Shown in pieces: positions 4,510 to 23,471 of a stretch of DNA of 64,000 nt. The stretch is taken from assembly GCA_019638355.1 (NCBI GenBank), contig JAHBTY010000002.1, positions 256,001 to 320,000 of the forward strand, in the 5' to 3' direction. How positions within the stretch are numbered: the first letter of the stretch is position 1; each line of letters starts with the position of its first letter. Below the pieces are notes generated by a model that was given only the letters and a program-made list of their open reading frames with translations, was not told the origin of the DNA and ran no database searches. This stretch comes from Cyclobacteriaceae bacterium (GTDB lineage Bacteria; Bacteroidota; Bacteroidia; Cytophagales; Cyclobacteriaceae). A program made the translations under genes and the position numbers.

Positions 4510-6420
4510 TTACCAAATGATTGTGTAATTGAACGACCCACTAACCGGTATAATCAATTCCTGCTTTCCTGCGCTTTCGCGGATTTGAGGAGTTCCGTTT
4601 ATGCGGATGTAATAACTCTTATCATCAATAGCATACCAGCCATTCGGGTTTTTCGTGATAACTTTCCCTTCTGCCAATTTGTAGTATAATCCGGTTTTTC
4701 CATTCGGGTTATTGATGGTTACTTCATGCACAATTGCATTGTCTTTCGGATACACTTTATCTTCTACTTCCAATCCACGATAAGTAGCTTTAAAGGTTGG
4801 TCGTCCTGTATCATCTACTGAATAGCCCCTGGATCGATACTCGCCTTTTGTTACTTCTGCTTCTTTCGCAATTACAGGAAACGCTTCGTTGGCTGATGAT
4901 AAAAACGCAAGGGGTTGATTGTTGAAAAGAAACAATGTAGCACCAAGCGGTTTAAATGAACCATCGCCCCGATCGTGCCACATGGGTGTTGCATCTACAA
5001 ATTCGCCACGCCATACACAGGCAATATTTCCGGCTTTCAAATCATATACATAATGAACACCGGAAGGATCGCCCACGCCAATGGTATGTGTTAACCGTTG
5101 TTTGTTATCATCTTTAAAATCAAGGAATGCCCGCAACAACTTTGGCGAACTGGTCGGGTTAATCAAAATTGGAGAAACCGGTTGATCGTTGGGTGGATAA
5201 GAATTAAATGCATGCAAAGCCTTAAGGTCCGCTCCTGCCTGAACATAAAAGCCTAATCGCGGTGGCATCCACGAAGCATTTTTATAATTGATGATTTCGA
5301 ATGGATATGAACCAGCTTTAAGGTTAATGGCTGCCTGGTTGGTTGGCCACCAGCCATCGCCACTTTGTGCGTTTACCAACTGTTGATTGTTAATGGTTAA
5401 CCGCGCGCCACCCGTGTAAGCAATCAGAAAGCGATAATCTGCATCATCTGATACCGTGAGCGTTCCGGTATAGCGTGCACCGTAAGCATCTTCATTTTCT
5501 AAAATCTCACAGCTTAGTTCAGAAAGTTTGCCACTTGCAGCAACCGGCAACGAAACAAAATCAGAAATCAACTTATAATTACCATACCAGGTTTGATAAG
5601 CCACATCGCTGATGTTTACGGAAACTGGCTTAATAGCGGTGTACTTGATATTGCGAATAGCCACCGGACCATGATCACCTTGAATCATCAACGGACCGGT
5701 TGGCTTTTCATTATTTTCAATCGGACCACCGGTTGGTAATGGTACTTCCACATTTTCATGGATGCGTACACCATTCAGATCGACATATACAAAGCGTGCG
5801 TTTTCAATTTTGTTACCCGCTGCATCGAAGCGAGGCGCACGAAATGAGATTTTAAATTTCTGCCAAAGGCCAGGTGCTTTTGCAGGATTGCTAAGCGGAG
5901 CTTTGCCCATATAAATTTTCCCTTTCTCGTTTTCCCAGTTGCGATAGATACCACCCATGTCAGAATACTTTGGCGTTTGCACGCCCCAGCTATCGAGCAG
6001 TTGTACTTCGTATCGGCCTTGCAAATAAATACCGGAATTGGAACCACGCGGCAACATTACTTCCAGTTCAAGTTCCAGATCGCCATGTTCGAGATTGGTA
6101 ACCAAGTGGTCCTTCTTCGTATCATCATTCATGTTAAGCAGAATGCCTGAACCAGTGGTGAATGTTACCGCTTTTTGTTCGGTTTTAGCAACCACGCTTT
6201 TGGTTTTTTTTCCACGCTTTTCGATTACCGGTTGCAATTCCGTTTTTCCCTTTTCATGAATATCGAGGTCGGGATTGATAACCACATCGCCCACAATTTG
6301 CCAGTTGCCCGCCTGCGGACGAAAGGCTGAAAGATCGTTCAAGTTTAAGTTTTGTGTCTGGGCACCAGCTACAAACGTGCCTAAAAAGGCTGCATAGGCA
6401 AATAATAGTTTCTTTAACAT
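4510..6420 (-). CDS. DUF1080 (3-keto-disaccharide hydrolase-like) protein with PA14-like domain
   Basis: Read from the ATG at 6420 this is a 636-residue exported protein with signal peptide MLKKLLFAYAAFLGTFVAGA; a start 30 bases further upstream would put a non-signal extension in front. Residues about 90-260 form a DUF1080 concanavalin-like domain (for example SNSGIYLQGRYEVQLLDSWG and GGIYRN). Residues about 280-410 look like a PA14-type carbohydrate-binding module (YTGTLTVSDDADYRFLIAYT). The remaining 230 residues are a beta-rich region I do not recognise. DUF1080 proteins are associated with 3-keto-glycoside or 3-keto-disaccharide hydrolysis. Being upstream of a propeller-cytochrome c protein in one operon suggests an oxidative periplasmic glycan pathway; that link is inference. 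Confidence 0.75.
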   Translation of the reverse strand: MLKKLLFAYAAFLGTFVAGAQTQNLNLNDLSAFRPQAGNWQIVGDVVINPDLDIHEKGKTELQPVIEKRGKKTKSVVAKTEQKAVTFTTGSGILLNMNDDTKKDHLVTNLEHGDLELELEVMLPRGSNSGIYLQGRYEVQLLDSWGVQTPKYSDMGGIYRNWENEKGKIYMGKAPLSNPAKAPGLWQKFKISFRAPRFDAAGNKIENARFVYVDLNGVRIHENVEVPLPTGGPIENNEKPTGPLMIQGDHGPVAIRNIKYTAIKPVSVNISDVAYQTWYGNYKLISDFVSLPVAASGKLSELSCEILENEDAYGARYTGTLTVSDDADYRFLIAYTGGARLTINNQQLVNAQSGDGWWPTNQAAINLKAGSYPFEIINYKNASWMPPRLGFYVQAGADLKALHAFNSYPPNDQPVSPILINPTSSPKLLRAFLDFKDDNKQRLTHTIGVGDPSGVHYVYDLKAGNIACVWRGEFVDATPMWHDRGDGSFKPLGATLFLFNNQPLAFLSSANEAFPVIAKEAEVTKGEYRSRGYSVDDTGRPTFKATYRGLEVEDKVYPKDNAIVHEVTINNPNGKTGLYYKLAEGKVITKNPNGWYAIDDKSYYIRINGTPQIRESAGKQELIIPVSGSFNYTIIW

Positions 6421-6514
6421 AGTTGTATAAACTAAAAACACGAATATCATTAATCTAAACCAGAAATAACAACCCTTGCCTCGTTGATTTAAAACACATG
6501 TTGCCCAAATTATT

Positions 6515-12452: not shown

Positions 12453-13063
12453 CTATCCTCCTGATTGCTCTACAATAAGTTCCAAAATTAAACTCGTTAA
12501 TATTTCTACATCGCTGTTTATCGTTCCTTGCATGTAGCGCTCATAAACAAATACATTGTCAGGCGGGTTCAGGTTTAGTATTAATCCTTTCTCCCATGCG
12601 AGTAACCGAATAAACTCGCGTTGGGCTCGTCCGTTGCCTTCTCTGAAAGGGTGTAGATAATTCACATGATCCAGAATCTCAGCTAATTTCTGTGCTAATG
12701 CTTGTTGTCCGTTTTGCGAATACCTTTGTATTCCAAAATCAATGTATCGATGTAGCGTAAAGCATTTTCAAAATGGCTTGTCGGAAAAAACTGTTTACCT
12801 GCTTTGCCAATTTCAACAACTCGTCTTGTGCCTGCCCAAGCATAAACATCCTGAAACAAGTGCTTGTGAATTACAAACAAACTTGTTGTGCCTTTAATTT
12901 TTATAGGATTTTCGTAAAGCTCTTGTACTCGTTTTGTTACCGCACCGCTTTCAGCAAAAAGCAAAACTTCCTCGTCTTCAATGTTAGCTAAATTACGAAG
13001 TACCCCCGTTTTGGGATCAGTGTAAGTATAATCGGGGTCTAAAAATTTGTAAGCATCAGACAT
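12453..13063 (-). pseudogene. fic: Fic/DOC family AMP-transferase toxin, single-base frameshift
   Basis: Two adjacent minus-strand frames make one Fic protein of about 204 residues. The first frame (start ATG at 13063) covers the N-terminal helices, including HKHLFQDVYAWAGTRRV, and stops early. The second carries the intact catalytic motif HPFREGNGRAQREF and the C-terminal helices. They join if one A is added to the A4 run at 12712-12715 (T4 on the plus strand); the restored junction reads RKNGQQALAQKLAEILDHVN, typical of the family. Fic toxins AMPylate targets such as topoisomerases. The start overlaps the antitoxin stop by 8 bases. The homopolymer position makes an assembly error possible as well as a real mutation. 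Confidence 0.85.
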
Positions 13064-13277
13064 AAGCTTTCTCTTTTGCCAATTTGATAAACTCGGCAAA
13101 AGTAATTTTTCCGGTTACGTAATCTCTGATGAGGGTTACACCTTTAGGGGTTGGCTCAAAACCTTCAAACATGTTAGTGCCGATAGCGTTTGCCGTGCTT
13201 TCCAATGTTTTAAGATCCGAAAATTGCACACCCATCAGGGTAAGATTATCGCGGTCTATGTCTATAACCTTATACAT
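13056..13277 (-). CDS. VbhA-type antitoxin of the Fic module
   Basis: A 73-residue protein read from the ATG at 13277 (an in-frame TTG lies 12 bases earlier). It contains TNMFEG (about residues 34-39), fitting the [S/T]xxxE[G/N] inhibitory motif of class I Fic antitoxins; the glutamate would displace the gamma-phosphate site of ATP in the Fic active site. The C-terminal half VTGKITFAEFIKLAKEKAYV resembles the three-helix VbhA antitoxin domain. The stop overlaps the Fic start by 8 bases, the usual antitoxin-first order. The antitoxin is intact while the toxin frame is broken. Confidence 0.8.
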   Translation of the reverse strand: MYKVIDIDRDNLTLMGVQFSDLKTLESTANAIGTNMFEGFEPTPKGVTLIRDYVTGKITFAEFIKLAKEKAYV

Positions 13278-13351
13278 ATTTTCTACCAAAAGTTATTCAA
13301 TATACAACTTTTCCCATAAAGAGATTAGCAGAAATGAATCCGACTCTGCTT

Positions 13352-14971
13352 TCAAAAAACATAATCCGTACTCAAAAACACCGACTCACGGTTTTGAATA
13401 ATCTGGCTGATAATTTTTTTATTGCTTTCACTTGCCTTTGTAGCTACCAACGTACGAATGGAGAACACTCGTAGCGCATCACCTACCGATAAGGTTCCTT
13501 CTGCCGAATCTTTTCTTCCGTTGAACGGAAAATTATCCGGGCCGCGCTGGCATTGCACATTCAGGTTAATGCGGCCCACCTGGCTCGAGAACGCATCAAT
13601 CAACCGCGCTACTTGTTTGGAGTCGTTGCCAAAAATACTCACCTGTTGTCCAAAGTTAGAGTTAAGCACATAATCGATTGCCTCCTCTTCATTCTCAAAA
13701 GGAACCACGGGCACCACCGGACCAAACTGCTCTTCGTAATACACGCGCATTTTATTATTTACCGGATAGAGTAAAGCCGGGTAAAAAAATGTTTCTGAAA
13801 CTGTACCCCCATCCGGATTGATAACAGCAGCACCGTGTTGTTTTGCATCTTCCACCAACTTGGTTAAGTAATCGGTCTTGCCCGGTTCGGGTAGTGGTGT
13901 AAGGCCAACACCTGCATCCCACGGCATGCCGGGTTTCAGTTTTGAAATTTCAGCCGATAACTTTTTAATAAACTCATCTACAATGCTTTTGTGTACATAT
14001 AAAATTTTTAAAGCTGTACAACGCTGACCGTTGAATGATAACGAACCCAGCAAACATTCATTTACGGCATTGTTGATATCGGCATCGGGCAATACGATAG
14101 CCGGGTTCTTCGCATCTAAACCTAAAATTGCTTTTAAGCGATGTGGCTTCGGATGTAGTTTCTTTAATTCGTTCGCGCCTTTATTGGTACCAATAAAAGC
14201 AAACACATCTACTTTACCGGTTTCCATTAACGCGCCCACTGTTTCGCGCCCACGCCCATAAATCACATTAATTACACCAGCCGGAAAACACGTGCGAAAA
14301 GCTTCGAGTAGCGGATGTATTAACAGCACACCATACTTGGCGGGTTTAAACACCACCGTATTACCCATAATCAAAGCCGGGAATAGCGTGCTGAATGTTT
14401 CGTTGAGCGGATAGTTGTAAGGCCCCATGCACAAGGCAACACCTAATGGCACACGTCTGATTTGCGCCATAATACCTTGCTCGTACACAAAGCCCGATGA
14501 CTTACGGTCGAGTTCTTTCAATGAGTTGATAGTATCTACAATGTAATCGCAGGTGCGATCAAATTCTTTTTCAGAATCTTTTTGTGTTTTACCGATTTCC
14601 CACATTAACAGGTTTACAATGGCTTGTCGTTGTTCGCGCATCTTCACCAGAAATTTTTCTACATGTTCGATGCGCTCAGCCACCGACATGGTAGGCCACA
14701 CACCATGGCCCTGATCGTATGCTTTTACGGCTGAGTCTAATGCCGCCAACGCTTCTTTCGATGTGAGCAAAGGTGTGCTTCCAATTACTTGTTGTTTGAT
14801 AGTTCCATCGGGTTGTTTTAAACACACCGGACTTAATACCGGGCTCATATCACCTTGCCAGGTAACTAACTTACCATCTAATAAATATTCGCGTTGTTCT
14901 AACTTGGAAGGCAAAGCTACCGCAGCAGGCACCTGATTGGCTTGTGGAAAAAGATTTTTAATAGAGTTCAT
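13352..14971 (-). CDS. gapN: NADP-dependent (non-phosphorylating) glyceraldehyde-3-phosphate dehydrogenase-like aldehyde dehydrogenase
   Basis: From the ATG at 14971 the protein has 539 residues; an upstream start would lie inside deoC. It is an aldehyde dehydrogenase with the NAD(P)-binding segment PLGVALCMGPYNYPLNE and FKPAKYG, the general base region LGLDAKNPAIVLPDAD, and the catalytic cysteine in FNGQRCTALK, matching the GapN subgroup. GapN oxidises glyceraldehyde-3-phosphate directly to 3-phosphoglycerate with NADPH formation. The start overlaps the end of deoC by 14 bases, which makes sense because DeoC releases glyceraldehyde-3-phosphate. A 30-residue C-terminal extension ends at 13352. 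Substrate assignment is by motif and context. Confidence 0.78.
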   Translation of the reverse strand: MNSIKNLFPQANQVPAAVALPSKLEQREYLLDGKLVTWQGDMSPVLSPVCLKQPDGTIKQQVIGSTPLLTSKEALAALDSAVKAYDQGHGVWPTMSVAERIEHVEKFLVKMREQRQAIVNLLMWEIGKTQKDSEKEFDRTCDYIVDTINSLKELDRKSSGFVYEQGIMAQIRRVPLGVALCMGPYNYPLNETFSTLFPALIMGNTVVFKPAKYGVLLIHPLLEAFRTCFPAGVINVIYGRGRETVGALMETGKVDVFAFIGTNKGANELKKLHPKPHRLKAILGLDAKNPAIVLPDADINNAVNECLLGSLSFNGQRCTALKILYVHKSIVDEFIKKLSAEISKLKPGMPWDAGVGLTPLPEPGKTDYLTKLVEDAKQHGAAVINPDGGTVSETFFYPALLYPVNNKMRVYYEEQFGPVVPVVPFENEEEAIDYVLNSNFGQQVSIFGNDSKQVARLIDAFSSQVGRINLNVQCQRGPDNFPFNGRKDSAEGTLSVGDALRVFSIRTLVATKASESNKKIISQIIQNRESVFLSTDYVF

Positions 14972-15629
14972 GGTAGGTTGTAGGATTTTGGGTAACAATA
15001 TTTTTTCCGGATGAGGTTCCGAGCCGATCGGCTCCGGCTTCTATTAATTGAATGGCTTGTTCATAGGTTTTAATTCCTCCGCTCGCTTTTATACCAACTG
15101 TTGCTGGCACAGCGCTGCGAATAATTTTTATATGCTCAACTTTAGCTCCTGCGGAAGCAAACCCGGTAGATGTTTTTACAAAATCAGCACCAGCATCGGC
15201 ACAAAGTTTACTGGCTTCTTCTATTTCTGCATCCGACAAGTAGGCAGTTTCAATGATTACTTTTAAGAGCTTCTGATTATCGTGCGTCAACTTTGCGCAC
15301 TTGGCTATTTCTATTTTAGTCCAGGGCAATCCGGTTTTAAACGAACTGATGTTCCATACCACGTCAACCTCATCGGCACCGTTATCGATCGCGCGTTTGA
15401 TTTCGTCCAGTTTGGTTTCCGTCATGCTATACCCGAGTGGAAAACCTGCCACCGTAACTAATAAAATTTTATCGGTTCCAATTTCACGTTGTGCACGCTT
15501 TACCCAAAAAGGTGGCACACAAATACCTACAAAACCAAAGGCACGAGCCTCATCCACCAATTGATCAATTGCACTTATGGTAAGTGCAGGACTCAAGTTG
15601 GTGTGCTCAATATAGTGGGCCAGATTCAA
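14958..15629 (-). CDS. deoC: Deoxyribose-phosphate aldolase
   Basis: A 223-residue class I aldolase of usual length. The start is TTG at 15629, because a stop lies four codons upstream and the N-terminus (N)LAHYIEHTNLSP aligns with the family (LA..IDHT.L.P). The Schiff-base lysine is in GADFVKTSTGF, and VGIKASGGI carries the second conserved lysine. It cleaves 2-deoxyribose-5-phosphate into glyceraldehyde-3-phosphate and acetaldehyde in nucleoside catabolism. It overlaps the following GapN-like gene by 14 bases. No other deo genes are adjacent. Confidence 0.9.
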   Translation of the reverse strand: MNLAHYIEHTNLSPALTISAIDQLVDEARAFGFVGICVPPFWVKRAQREIGTDKILLVTVAGFPLGYSMTETKLDEIKRAIDNGADEVDVVWNISSFKTGLPWTKIEIAKCAKLTHDNQKLLKVIIETAYLSDAEIEEASKLCADAGADFVKTSTGFASAGAKVEHIKIIRSAVPATVGIKASGGIKTYEQAIQLIEAGADRLGTSSGKNIVTQNPTTYHELY

Positions 15630-15730
15630 CGTTGCTGATGTTTAACCGGCAACGAAATTAGTTTATCCGAATCAGATTATTTAGGCGAATGACATTATTT
15701 AAGAGAGCAGAATGAAAATACTCATCAACA

Positions 15731-15768
15731 AACGATAATTAGGCTAATACTATACCTAAATTATCGTT
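15731..15768 (-). terminator. Hairpin downstream of the small-protein operon
   Basis: Arms AACGATAATTAGG (15731-15743) and CCTAAATTATCGTT (15755-15768) pair with one bulge around an 11-base loop. The hairpin lies 29 bases past the stop of the gene at 15797 and upstream of deoC, so it is probably a terminator, though an operator for deoC is possible. The rest of 15630-15796 shows no gene. Confidence 0.5.
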
Positions 15769-15796
15769 CAGTAATGAAATCTGAGTTCAAAAACAA

Positions 15797-16165
15797 TTAG
15801 TGCCGGATGCCACACTCTTTACAATACTTCATTTTATAAGGTGGGTTTTTCTTTGGCATTTTTTTATGACCGTAATAGAGTGGGTTTGAGTATTGCGGTG
15901 CAGCCAACTTTTTCAATAACTTTTGTTTTTCCTTTGCAGCTTTCTCCACACGCGCATAAAATTCGTATTGAGCCGTATGTTTTACCTTCGCTTTCTTCAG
16001 CAAAATTTTTTGCCTTTTAGTTTGCTGATGAGTAGGCTTTAGCTTTTTGGAATGAACCTGAATGATTTCAGGGGCTTTATCGCCAAGCGTAGTTTGAGCT
16101 TGGGATAGCCAGGGCACAATAATAGCCAACAGACTGGTGAAAGCCTGGATTAATAGTTTTTGCAT
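15797..16165 (-). CDS. Hypothetical secreted basic protein
   Basis: From the ATG at 16165 the product is 122 residues with a convincing signal peptide (MQKLLIQAFTSLLAIIVPWLSQAQ). The mature part is strongly basic and helical (many Lys/Gln, for example KKLKPTHQQTKRQKILLKKA), then a Tyr/Pro/Lys-rich section ending KYCKECGIRH, a CxxC pair that could bind metal or form a disulfide. A longer frame upstream would run through the two micro-protein genes and is not believable. It is the last of three small genes on this strand, starting about 35 bases after the second micro-protein. I do not recognise a family. Confidence 0.5.
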   Translation of the reverse strand: MQKLLIQAFTSLLAIIVPWLSQAQTTLGDKAPEIIQVHSKKLKPTHQQTKRQKILLKKAKVKHTAQYEFYARVEKAAKEKQKLLKKLAAPQYSNPLYYGHKKMPKKNPPYKMKYCKECGIRH

Positions 16166-16199
16166 AGCAGCGATAGAACGCTGCAAACCGGTAGATATT

Positions 16200-16343
16200 T
16201 CAGGAAGTGAAGAATTGGAAAATATAATAGGCCACCACAGCCATTCCAACCAACAAGGCAATGTAACCGAACATACGGGCACGTTCATAGTAGCCCTTCA
16301 CGGGCATGATGCTTTTCTTTTTGCGATGAGTAGTCAAAGTCAT
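16200..16343 (-). CDS. Micro-membrane protein 2 (47 aa) of a coupled tandem pair
   Basis: Start ATG at 16343 overlaps the stop of the preceding 38-residue gene in a TAATG arrangement, a sign of translational coupling. The 47 residues are MTLTTHRKKKSIMP, then VKGYYERAR, then a single transmembrane segment (about residues 24-44) ending FQFFTS. The motif P-x-K-x-YY-x-R-x-R immediately before the membrane segment is shared with its upstream neighbour, so the two are probably an ancient tandem duplication. The positive N-terminus predicts N-in topology. No known family is recognised. Confidence 0.6.
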   Translation of the reverse strand: MTLTTHRKKKSIMPVKGYYERARMFGYIALLVGMAVVAYYIFQFFTS

Positions 16344-16459
16344 TAAGATTCTACTATAAATCTCGCAATAAAATACACAGTAAAGCAAACCGCAACCAGC
16401 ACCATTAGCACGCGAGGCCGATTGTAATAAACTTTAGCTGGAGTAACTTTCAATTTCAT
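16343..16459 (-). CDS. Micro-membrane protein 1 (38 aa) of a coupled tandem pair
   Basis: A short frame with ATG at 16459 and TAA at 16343-16345. The sequence begins MKLKVTPAKVYYNRPRVL and continues as one transmembrane helix ending FIARFIVES. The stop overlaps the next gene's ATG by one base. The same P-x-K-x-YY-x-R-x-R block precedes the membrane span as in the next gene. The length, coupling and shared motif argue that it is real although it is below usual gene-calling limits. Function is unknown; small partners of a larger membrane complex, or leader-like peptides, are possible. Confidence 0.55.
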   Translation of the reverse strand: MKLKVTPAKVYYNRPRVLMVLVAVCFTVYFIARFIVES

Positions 16460-16970
16460 AACTAATTGATTTACATAATTTTAATATAAAAATACAAAAA
16501 TAAACTTGAAATAGCAAAAGGATAAAAATGGCAGTTGAATGGCTATTAAAACAGTTAAGCCGACACAGGTAACTGGGTATTGCGATTACCCAGCAGTAGA
16601 TAATTTTCTTCAGCCAAAGCCCGCATCGGTTTTTTGATGCCGGTTGTAGATAGCAATGTGTTGATTGCGACTGCAGATTGCACATGAAAGGCTAAGTTGA
16701 CTATTACCCCTTGTGGTATTCTTTCATTCGCATAAGGTGATACCGGTATCGGTTTTAGATTAATTGTTGCGTTTGTCTAACAGTTTTTCCTGTTGATGGT
16801 AACGCTTCATATTGTCAGGCCACTTCCCTCTATCGTAGCATTGTTTCTGTTTTACTTTTCAGACAGGGCTTTGCATGTTGATGTCCATCAAATCTTTTCA
16901 ATAACCTGGTTTACCCGGCATATACCAAAAGAGGCTGCCCTATTGAGACGGGCCCGAAATATAAATTCAG
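16460..16970. other. Long spacer with an AT-rich leader and a possible gene remnant
   Basis: Bases 16460-16545 are very AT-rich and probably hold the promoter of the micro-protein operon. On the minus strand a frame without a usable start is open at 16555-16776 (73 codons). It contains the segments NLKPIPVSPYANERIPQG, LSTTGIKKPMRALAEENY and LLLGNRNTQLPVSA, which have a protein-like composition. Just upstream in another frame is MKRYHQQEKLLDKRNN. This could be a decayed gene with a frameshift. The stretch 16780-16970 shows nothing else I can support. Confidence 0.35.
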
Positions 16971-18497
16971 TTAACCCACCTTTCCCGGATAAATAGTAGA
17001 GCCGGTATTGATAATCAAAATCTTTTCATCCTTTGGCACTTCATCGCGCATTTGTAATAGTAATGCTAAGCCAGCAATGCCGGAAGGTTCGCATCTTACC
17101 GATTGTTTGCGTGCTATCTCCAATGCTTCGGTAACAAAATTCTCATCTACATCCAATATGCCCGAAAGGTTTCCAATGCGTTCGTTCTGAATCAACGAAT
17201 TAATATAAAACTGGTAATCGTCTAACGAGGGCAAATAATAAGAAAATAATTTGTCAAGTTTCGAATTAGCATCGCGGGTGGTGGCGCCCATGAAGTTACA
17301 TTCGTTTATTTTTTTTATGTCGCCCAGAAAGCGCGGATCGTGCTTGTAGATACTGTTATTAAATTCGCGCTCGGCAATAATTAAAATATTCACAAACAAA
17401 TCGCCTGTGCCAAACGGCACAAAACAATAAGCCGGATTTTCATTCAGCACTTCGTACGAAAGCCAATCGTAATAGTTATCGTTAAACCGGTCCAGAATTT
17501 CACGATAGGTAATATCAATACCCTCTTTGTTGTGGGTAAGTTCTTTAATCTCTTTTCCGGTTAAAGATCGTGAACTTAGATCTGTTTCATATACTTCACA
17601 ACCCATCTGGCGCAACGATTCTTTAATGCTTGCGCTGATGCGATTGTCCATCAACACTTTTAGCTTCGTGTTTACTTTATATAAATTAAAGAAATGCTGA
17701 ATAGCTGCTGCCGCACTTCCGGATGAAATGATTGACACTTCTTTAATGTTGTAGCGCTTCGATTTAATCAAAACTTCCCACGCCATGCGGGCTTTGTGTG
17801 TGCCTGTTGGATTAGTACTTTCATCTTTCAACCATACGTTGGTAAAGCCGGGCACTTCAATCCGAAATGTATTGGATGCCGGAAACCGAGGCTCGTAAAA
17901 CGGGCGTGGTGGAAATTCCGGTTTGGCTGGATCGTTGAGCGAAGGCACATATAATCCATCAATCATGTCATCGCTGGTTCGTGCTTGCTCATCGTCAATT
18001 TGTTCTTTGATCAGATCTAACTCCTTCTTCGAAAGTTTTTCGAGGAGCACATTGGCAATTTTCGCAGCAAACGAATCTACATTATCAGTATCAATTGACT
18101 TGCTGGGTTCTGGCTCTGCCATATCTTCATCGCCTGCATCCAGCAATGTGTTGAATTTATCCGCAAAGCGATCGCTAATCAAAGCATTCCAATCGTGTTT
18201 GTTTTGCGTGGCAAATAGTGCCAACAAATTGCGCAGCGATTGTGTAGCTCCGGGCGGGCTTTTTAAATTGAAAGCCCTGCGCAATAAATCTTCTGATGGT
18301 CCCTGCGGATAAGCCAGCGAGAGTTGGGGATCAAGCGATGGTGTATTTTTTACAAAATCTTTCATGGCTTTTTGCAAGCCATGAATAAAACTCCACCGAC
18401 CGGTACCCACCGACTCGTGAAAACCGGTGCGTGCCAGTTGTTCACGGATTAAATCCAGAATCTCTTTAGGAATACGTTTGGCTGATGCTTTCTTCAT
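16971..18497 (-). CDS. PLP-dependent fold-type II enzyme with long N-terminal extension
   Basis: A 508-residue protein. The C-terminal 310 residues form a threonine-synthase/cysteine-synthase-like fold: the PLP lysine is K235 in DESTNPTGTHKARMAW, the cofactor phosphate loop is SSGSAAAAIQ, and a glycine-rich loop is FVPFGTGDLF. The last segment IINTGSTIYPG matches the end of this fold. The first 190 residues are helical and charged, with an Asp/Glu-rich part (AGDEDMAEPEPSKSIDTDN), and match nothing I recognise. The enzyme probably acts on a beta- or gamma-substituted amino acid. It follows lspA by 76 bases and may be co-transcribed with ileS-lspA. Substrate is unknown. Confidence 0.7.
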   Translation of the reverse strand: MKKASAKRIPKEILDLIREQLARTGFHESVGTGRWSFIHGLQKAMKDFVKNTPSLDPQLSLAYPQGPSEDLLRRAFNLKSPPGATQSLRNLLALFATQNKHDWNALISDRFADKFNTLLDAGDEDMAEPEPSKSIDTDNVDSFAAKIANVLLEKLSKKELDLIKEQIDDEQARTSDDMIDGLYVPSLNDPAKPEFPPRPFYEPRFPASNTFRIEVPGFTNVWLKDESTNPTGTHKARMAWEVLIKSKRYNIKEVSIISSGSAAAAIQHFFNLYKVNTKLKVLMDNRISASIKESLRQMGCEVYETDLSSRSLTGKEIKELTHNKEGIDITYREILDRFNDNYYDWLSYEVLNENPAYCFVPFGTGDLFVNILIIAEREFNNSIYKHDPRFLGDIKKINECNFMGATTRDANSKLDKLFSYYLPSLDDYQFYINSLIQNERIGNLSGILDVDENFVTEALEIARKQSVRCEPSGIAGLALLLQMRDEVPKDEKILIINTGSTIYPGKVG

Positions 18498-22850: not shown

Positions 22851-23471
22851 ATGAAAGTGGAAGAGCCGGATTTGAGTTTGAGCTATACGTATGCCGATTA
22901 CCTGAAATGGGATTTGCCCGAAATGGTAGAGTTAATTCGTGGCAAGGTGTACAAGATGTCGCCTCCTCCAACATCAAGGCATCAAACTATTGTCGTTAAT
23001 CTGGTAACAGAAATCAAGGCATTTTTAAAAAAGCAAAAGTGTAAAGTGTTTGTTGCTCCCTTTGATGTACGCCTCCTCCGAAAGGGCAAACAAAATGAAG
23101 ATATAACAACTGTAGTTCAACCCGACATTTGTGTGATTTGCGATCCAACCAAAATTGATACGCGTGGTTGTTTGGGTGCCCCTGATTGGATAATTGAAAT
23201 TCTATCGAAGCATACTTCAGCTAAAGACCTGAACGAAAAATTTGAAGTGTACGAAGAAGCAGGTGTAAAAGAATATTGGGTAGTGCATCCCGGAGAGCAA
23301 ACGGTGTTGGTTTATACCCTGAACGATGCTGGAAAATACGAAGGCATTTTAAAGCCGTATGTGCGAACCGATAAAGTTCAGCCTAAGACCTTGCCTGGAC
23401 TTACAATCGATTTAGAGGAAGTATTTGAACGTTCCGAACCGGAAGATGAAAGTCATTATGTGAGGATTTGA
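22851..23471 (+). CDS. Uma2 family (DUF820) PD-(D/E)XK endonuclease-like protein
   Basis: A 206-residue protein of the Uma2 family. The N-terminal ELIRGKVYKMSPPPTSRHQ, the central VVQPDICVICDPTKID and WIIEILSKHTSAKDL, and EYWVVHPGEQ are the conserved blocks; the nuclease-like residues are the Glu of the first block, the Asp of QPD and the E-I-L motif. These proteins are restriction-endonuclease-like and expanded in Cyanobacteria and Bacteroidota; cellular role is unresolved. It is a single gene with a possible promoter just upstream (TTG at about 22817, TAAATTTA at about 22841). The 22740-22830 spacer contains G-rich near-repeats around GGGGATTGGG and ATTGGGGATTAGG. Confidence 0.8.
   Translation: MKVEEPDLSLSYTYADYLKWDLPEMVELIRGKVYKMSPPPTSRHQTIVVNLVTEIKAFLKKQKCKVFVAPFDVRLLRKGKQNEDITTVVQPDICVICDPTKIDTRGCLGAPDWIIEILSKHTSAKDLNEKFEVYEEAGVKEYWVVHPGEQTVLVYTLNDAGKYEGILKPYVRTDKVQPKTLPGLTIDLEEVFERSEPEDESHYVRI

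Follow-up and report, generated by a model that had tools for sequence, protein, structure and literature searches.

In the window, by which we mean the whole 64-kb stretch of DNA analyzed, two short adjacent reading frames, here called A and B (Table 1), were found to be paralogous genes; the genes themselves, their paralogy, order, and spacing, and the selection on their coding content are supported directly by the data. We tentatively propose, with rather less than even confidence, that their products are a cotranslated pair of accessory or regulatory membrane microproteins with cytoplasmic N termini, which would pair up and act on a larger inner-membrane protein.

Table 1. Coordinates of A, B, and the features around them in the window
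Feature	Positions	Strand	Description	Basis
Gene A	16343-16459	minus	ATG start, 38 aa; predicted single-helix membrane protein, first of the pair	Translation, homologs, purifying selection
Gene B	16200-16343	minus	ATG start, 47 aa (45 aa if from TTG); predicted single-helix membrane protein, paralog of A	Translation, homologs, purifying selection, profile comparison with A, one-helix model
Conserved upstream block	16460-16514	minus	55 nt directly upstream from A; probable promoter/start region	Pairwise identity
CGIRH protein	15797-16165	minus	Basic protein ending in CGIRH, probably secreted; neighbor, not judged part of the pair	Translation; independent, wider family
deoC-family aldolase	14958-15629	minus	Syntenic neighbor	Pfam DeoC

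Reading frames and evidence for coding

The frames were described correctly and in detail by the initial annotation: their translations give 38 and 47 codons and a one-base overlap within TAATG, in which the base A is common to the stop codon of the first gene and the start codon of the second. Its statement that both carry P-x-K-x-YY-x-R-x-R before a single membrane helix also held, on the evidence of a motif scan, of the one hydrophobic stretch that follows the motif in each protein, and of a structural model of B. The motif reads PAKVYYNRPR in A and PVKGYYERAR in B. A search of all six frames of the window for P.K.YY.R.R returned these two matches only; in 40 windows simulated with a first-order Markov model, the strict pattern averaged 0.0 matches and a looser pattern 0.475 matches per window. 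The B frame is open upstream from its ATG (62 codons counted from a TTG), and several close relatives have the fitting start of B at a TTG that lies two codons past the window's ATG; the protein may be 45 rather than 47 aa long. The differences that six of the closest genomes show in its N-terminal extension (TTHRKKKSI in the window) are mostly synonymous, and the extension looks to be translated as well. Prodigal has a usual minimum gene length of 90 nt, and both A and B are longer than this.

Substitution counts point to selection on the encoded proteins. Pooled pS and pN for A were 0.58 and 0.096 among seven of the closest genomes (21 pairs; pN/pS about 0.17), with dN/dS values from 0.03 to 0.31; the corresponding values for B, from six genomes (15 pairs), were 0.65 and 0.084 (pN/pS about 0.13), with dN/dS from 0.03 to 0.11 in the 11 unsaturated pairs. 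The counts for B omit one locus (L054) whose frame shifts within a homopolymer of A, probably through an error in the assembly. The frames of both genes can be aligned in other genera. Judged by these patterns, A and B are real genes under strong purifying selection, and the initial view of them as genuine small-protein genes is upheld by the selection acting on both and by their homologs.

Neither protein matched Pfam at an E value of 10; the best NCBIfam matches of A and B had E values of 0.11 and 0.077, with scores far below the cutoffs, and the best match in PHROGs had an E value of 0.15. A search of 40 A/B members against Pfam touched 21 families, none of them matched by more than a single member (best E value, 0.0027). 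The proteins are thus undescribed, as had been claimed, in the sense that they have no match in Pfam, NCBIfam, or PHROGs. Full-text literature searches returned no paper whose listing was recognizably about the A/B pair, although such a paper may be in print; PMC11364881 is a catalog of small proteins.

Topology

All 16 A and all 16 B sequences examined had one hydrophobic helix with a positive N-terminal side. Net charge before the helix was at least +3 in all 32 (means, 3.9 for A and 4.8 for B), and the mean after the helix was -0.1. By the positive-inside rule, under which the basic end of a membrane helix stays cytoplasmic, this charge pattern predicts that the N termini of both proteins lie in the cytoplasm. 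An AlphaFold2 model of B built from seven sequences had one continuous helix at residues 15 to 46 with a mean pLDDT of 78, confidence being low for roughly the first 20 residues; according to this model, the membrane helix would begin, on its cytoplasmic side, with the motif, which would not be a separate segment.

Paralogy, gene order, and spacing

Profiles of A-type and B-type sequences aligned in hhalign with a probability of 98.3% and an E value of 1.8e-14, a score favored by the choice of rows, since the A profile held 16 of 20 A-type rows (four diverged rows were left out) and the B profile held 14 of 20 B-type rows and two new ones. Scoring with separate A and B models showed that in 20 of 21 pairs, which included some from genera other than the window's, the first gene resembled A more than the second did; this count is not strictly held out, as the training rows came from the window's genus and included the A row of L116, and L084 and L113 have the same sequences. 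The exception was L153; the pairs at L129 and L115 were counted, and L072 and L147, with three frames listed, were not. Because the first gene is so regularly the more A-like one, the duplication is probably old, predating the split of these genera, with gene order kept since. Profile alignment and order together confirm the earlier claim that A and B are paralogs, and they indicate that two different chains have been maintained next to each other. Within B, R21 and F25 do not vary, and G26 and Y27 hardly do; A lacks a consensus at the two positions after the F.

The 22 A-B junctions comprised six overlaps of 1 to 4 nt (TAATG, TGATG, or ATGA), two abutting pairs, 11 gaps of 1 to 11 nt, two longer gaps (about 22 nt at L077 and about 51 nt at L074), and one ambiguous case (L054). 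TAATG itself was present at two of them only, in the window and at L062, and is thus one local variant of a tight spacing that is itself conserved. The translational coupling through TAATG that was first suggested is therefore retained in part: the tight spacing is kept and suits coupling, whereas the TAATG is not conserved.

Upstream block

The 55 nt directly upstream from A had mean pairwise identities of 0.78 and 0.71, compared with 0.30 to 0.34 further upstream, among eight genomes chosen for the similar look of their upstream regions; in more distant genomes (e.g., L061, L063, L064, and L069 to L077) the block was not clearly common. We consider it the probable promoter and start region of the pair itself, judging from this conservation. 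Some versions of the block are similar to TAnnTTTG, the Bacteroidota -7 element, without a clear -33 element; a sigma-70 scan, which found 8 sites versus 4.1 expected, placed none within positions 16460 to 16514. The block was rejected as the mark of a regulon, as its 25-base core (positions 16487 to 16511) matched the genome at a single site when up to 3 mismatches were allowed.

Distribution across genomes

The A/B profile matched 50 of 62 genomes of the genus at an E value of 0.01 or better, which excludes a lack of homologs in related genomes. Among good-quality genomes of the genus, 42 of 46 had a match; the pair is absent from the other 4 and is thus dispensable. By coordinates, the hits in the 50 genomes were two adjacent ones in 31, a single one in 16, and hits with further nonadjacent ones in 3; A/B copies stand at three places in one genome (G767). 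A single copy was also seen at 7 of the 29 loci compared for synteny. A closer look at 21 loci revealed a weak, diverged small membrane frame beside the single hit at L138, L147, and L150 and a doubtful second frame at L140.

At the level of the family, 15 of 196 sampled genomes, spread over 5 of 84 genera, matched at an E value below 1e-3; the search listed 137 of the 196 at an E value of 1, and those beyond the 15 were taken as noise. Matches at 1e-3 numbered 7 in an order-wide sample of 291 genomes and 3 in a class-wide sample of 295, all within the same family. The named relatives, at seven loci, are uncultured genomes labeled Cyclobacteriaceae, Cytophagales, or Bacteroidetes bacterium. 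At this sensitivity, at which distant relatives of such short proteins could be missed, the pair appears to be confined to part of one family. Phages, plasmids, and viral contigs gave no match to a query of B or B-type sequences, and on this basis a mobile origin of the pair was rejected.

Genomic neighborhood

Synteny was compared over 29 loci that were fetched for having hits and are not a random sample; A and B frames were marked at an E value of 0.01, and some stretches end at contig ends. The common order was an SDR gene (fabG-like), lpdA, in some cases genes for an ECF sigma factor and an RskA-like anti-sigma factor, A, B, in some cases a TPR gene and an SNase gene, the gene for the basic protein ending in CGIRH, deoC, and genes for an aldehyde dehydrogenase and an acylphosphatase; the labels fabG, lpdA, and TPR, like DinB and met for other genes, are ones that we presume from the sequences. 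The sigma and anti-sigma genes, which match ECF models and RskA_C, respectively, lie directly upstream from A/B at 11 of the 29 loci; a TPR gene lies directly downstream at 17, SNase was found at 14, and deoC was found at 20. The TPR gene is not beside B in the window, at L052 to L057, or at L078. The TPR proteins that follow A/B, as downstream from B at L067, L070, and L061, are large and secreted-looking and vary greatly in length (389 to 1,399 aa in their cluster).

A whole-genome search with one anti-sigma query (E value, 1e-5) found no anti-sigma gene in 12 genomes that have A or B, the window's genome included, and in three genomes (G011, G055, and G174) the anti-sigma gene is located elsewhere than A/B. 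Conversely, neighbors persist with no A/B seen between them: an anti-sigma gene and a TPR-like gene in G177; lpdA, TPR, SNase, CGIRH, and deoC in G159; and lpdA, SNase, CGIRH, and deoC in G769. As the neighbors remain without A/B, and as neither the sigma nor the TPR genes are constant, A/B is a separable unit.

The gene order upstream from A in the window's genome differs from that of relatives: positions 16971 to 18497 (minus strand) encode a PLP-dependent enzyme (PALP), a place taken in relatives by lpdA, sigma/anti-sigma, or DUF2520 genes. Elsewhere in the window, Fic/VbhA-like toxin-antitoxin genes occupy positions 12453 to 13289 (minus strand), with a VbhA antitoxin match at 13056 to 13289 and a Fic match at 12453 to 12665; the Fic-like frame is apparently broken between 12665 and 12695 (the parts were scanned apart), and the middle frame, at 12695 to 13099, has no Pfam match by itself. 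Positions 22851 to 23471 (plus strand) encode a Uma2-family protein, a family whose Pfam name is putative restriction endonuclease fold.

The CGIRH protein

The frame of the CGIRH protein starts at position 16165, 34 nt after the end of B. Its N terminus has a hydrophobic stretch that by eye resembles a signal peptide, and Y-C-x-x-C-G-I-R-H at its C terminus was invariant in nine aligned rows. It has no Pfam match and forms an uncharacterized family of its own, spread over several families of the Cytophagales: it was found in 30 of 241 genomes of the order, 22 of which belong to other families, where A/B was not seen in the samples searched. In the genus it was present in 51 of 60 genomes. Its contig is not that of A/B in G010, G012, G775, or G780, and in G779 the two are separated by about 69 kb. 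Automatic gene calls gave it in 20 of the 29 stretches, and direct search added the window and L052, in both of which the automatic choice had dropped it. At L062 it is present in tandem copies (5660 to 6004 and 6058 to 6441). In the window's clade it directly follows B, and cotranscription with A/B is possible there.

Discussion

The reading that we favor can be set out as a series of proposed steps. A and B would probably have a promoter of their own, and translation of B would follow immediately on that of A, so that the two chains arise at the same time. Each chain would insert as a single helix with its basic N terminus in the cytoplasm, the P-V-K-x-Y-Y-x-R-A-R stretch forming the cytoplasmic start of that helix. 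The two would then pair and become accessory or regulatory parts of a larger protein in the inner membrane, which they may contact through the conserved basic and aromatic stretch. An obligatory heterodimer in every genome is unlikely, since a single copy was counted at first in 16 of the 50 matching genomes of the genus and at 7 of the 29 synteny loci, although a few of these have weak, diverged neighboring frames.

By analogy, this accessory-pair reading fits KdpF, CydX, and AcrZ, accessory single-helix microproteins of bacterial membrane complexes that resemble A and B in small size and in having one membrane helix. Among solved structures, the A/B profile hit nothing but KdpF chains; these hits covered the helix part alone and had nonsignificant E values (0.26 and 0.38). 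Unlike these proteins, A and B are a duplicated pair; kdp, cyd, and acr genes were not seen beside them in the 29 stretches, as far as genes were named, and we know of no basic P-x-K-x-YY-x-R-x-R stretch in KdpF, CydX, or AcrZ. In its layout of two adjacent small single-helix genes, the pair also resembles PsbE/PsbF (cytochrome b559) and PufB/PufA (light harvesting), whose chains have their N termini inside and form heterodimers, as A and B might; those chains bind cofactors through helix histidines, whereas the helix of 40 aligned A/B members has no conserved histidine, and no sequence match was found. A more specific form of the proposal, which we regard as unlikely, is a cofactor-free two-chain device: an A-B heterodimer would present a joint basic and aromatic cytoplasmic face that switches a large inner-membrane machine, and selection would maintain it in a conserved neighborhood while the adjoining stress-sigma cassette comes and goes.

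Other explanations assign the pair to its neighbors. That A and B belong as accessories to the ECF sigma/RskA-like anti-sigma module, serving as membrane cofactors or targets of that stress switch, is attractive from the synteny, given the position of that module directly upstream at 11 loci and the model matches of both its genes. The association is not constant, however: 12 genomes with A or B yielded no anti-sigma gene to the single query, three have it elsewhere, and G177 has it with a TPR gene and no A/B seen between them; the idea was demoted mainly on account of the 12 genomes, and we hold it to be improbable. We think it very improbable that A, B, and CGIRH make up one operon with one function, as the initial annotation had proposed for A, B, and the basic protein that follows. 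The direct succession in the window's clade and the frequency of CGIRH in the stretches compared would suit it, but CGIRH is separate and wider, being present in other families where A/B was unseen and in G159 and G769 without A/B, lying on another contig or at a distance in some genomes, and being parted from B by TPR and SNase genes in many genomes. The operon was rejected as a necessary unit.

It has also to be considered that A and B are small toxin- or holin-type peptides active on membranes, like Hok or DinQ, controlled by antisense RNA or by each other. The likeness to Hok and to DinQ, the subject of PMC3567139, lies in size and the single membrane helix, and the HokA model matched A weakly and nonsignificantly (E value, 0.11; 12.6 bits versus a cutoff of 89). 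Against this kinship stand the fixed chromosomal setting over a genus, the strong coding selection, the lack of a match to B or B-type queries in phages, plasmids, and viral contigs, and the lack of an Rfam match within positions 15600 to 17000, where Rfam would detect described RNAs and a novel antisense RNA could escape; we judge the toxin explanation decidedly improbable. That the frames are no genes at all and either arose by chance or reflect a conserved RNA element is hardly credible. The region folds slightly better than shuffled sequences (z = -1.24; 12 of 100 shuffles were as good), but the pooled pN/pS ratios of both genes already contradict this explanation, the frames can be aligned in other genera, and the same Rfam scan had nothing at the site; with neither scan nor shuffle folding yielding anything, a conserved RNA element at A/B was rejected.

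Small membrane proteins of this phylum have, to our knowledge, been little studied, and A and B add to it a small-protein family with clear coding evidence. The old duplication, the kept order, and the tight spacing make them a directly testable pair of paralogous microproteins, for which genomes without the pair at the same place (G159 and G769) or with one copy provide ready controls.
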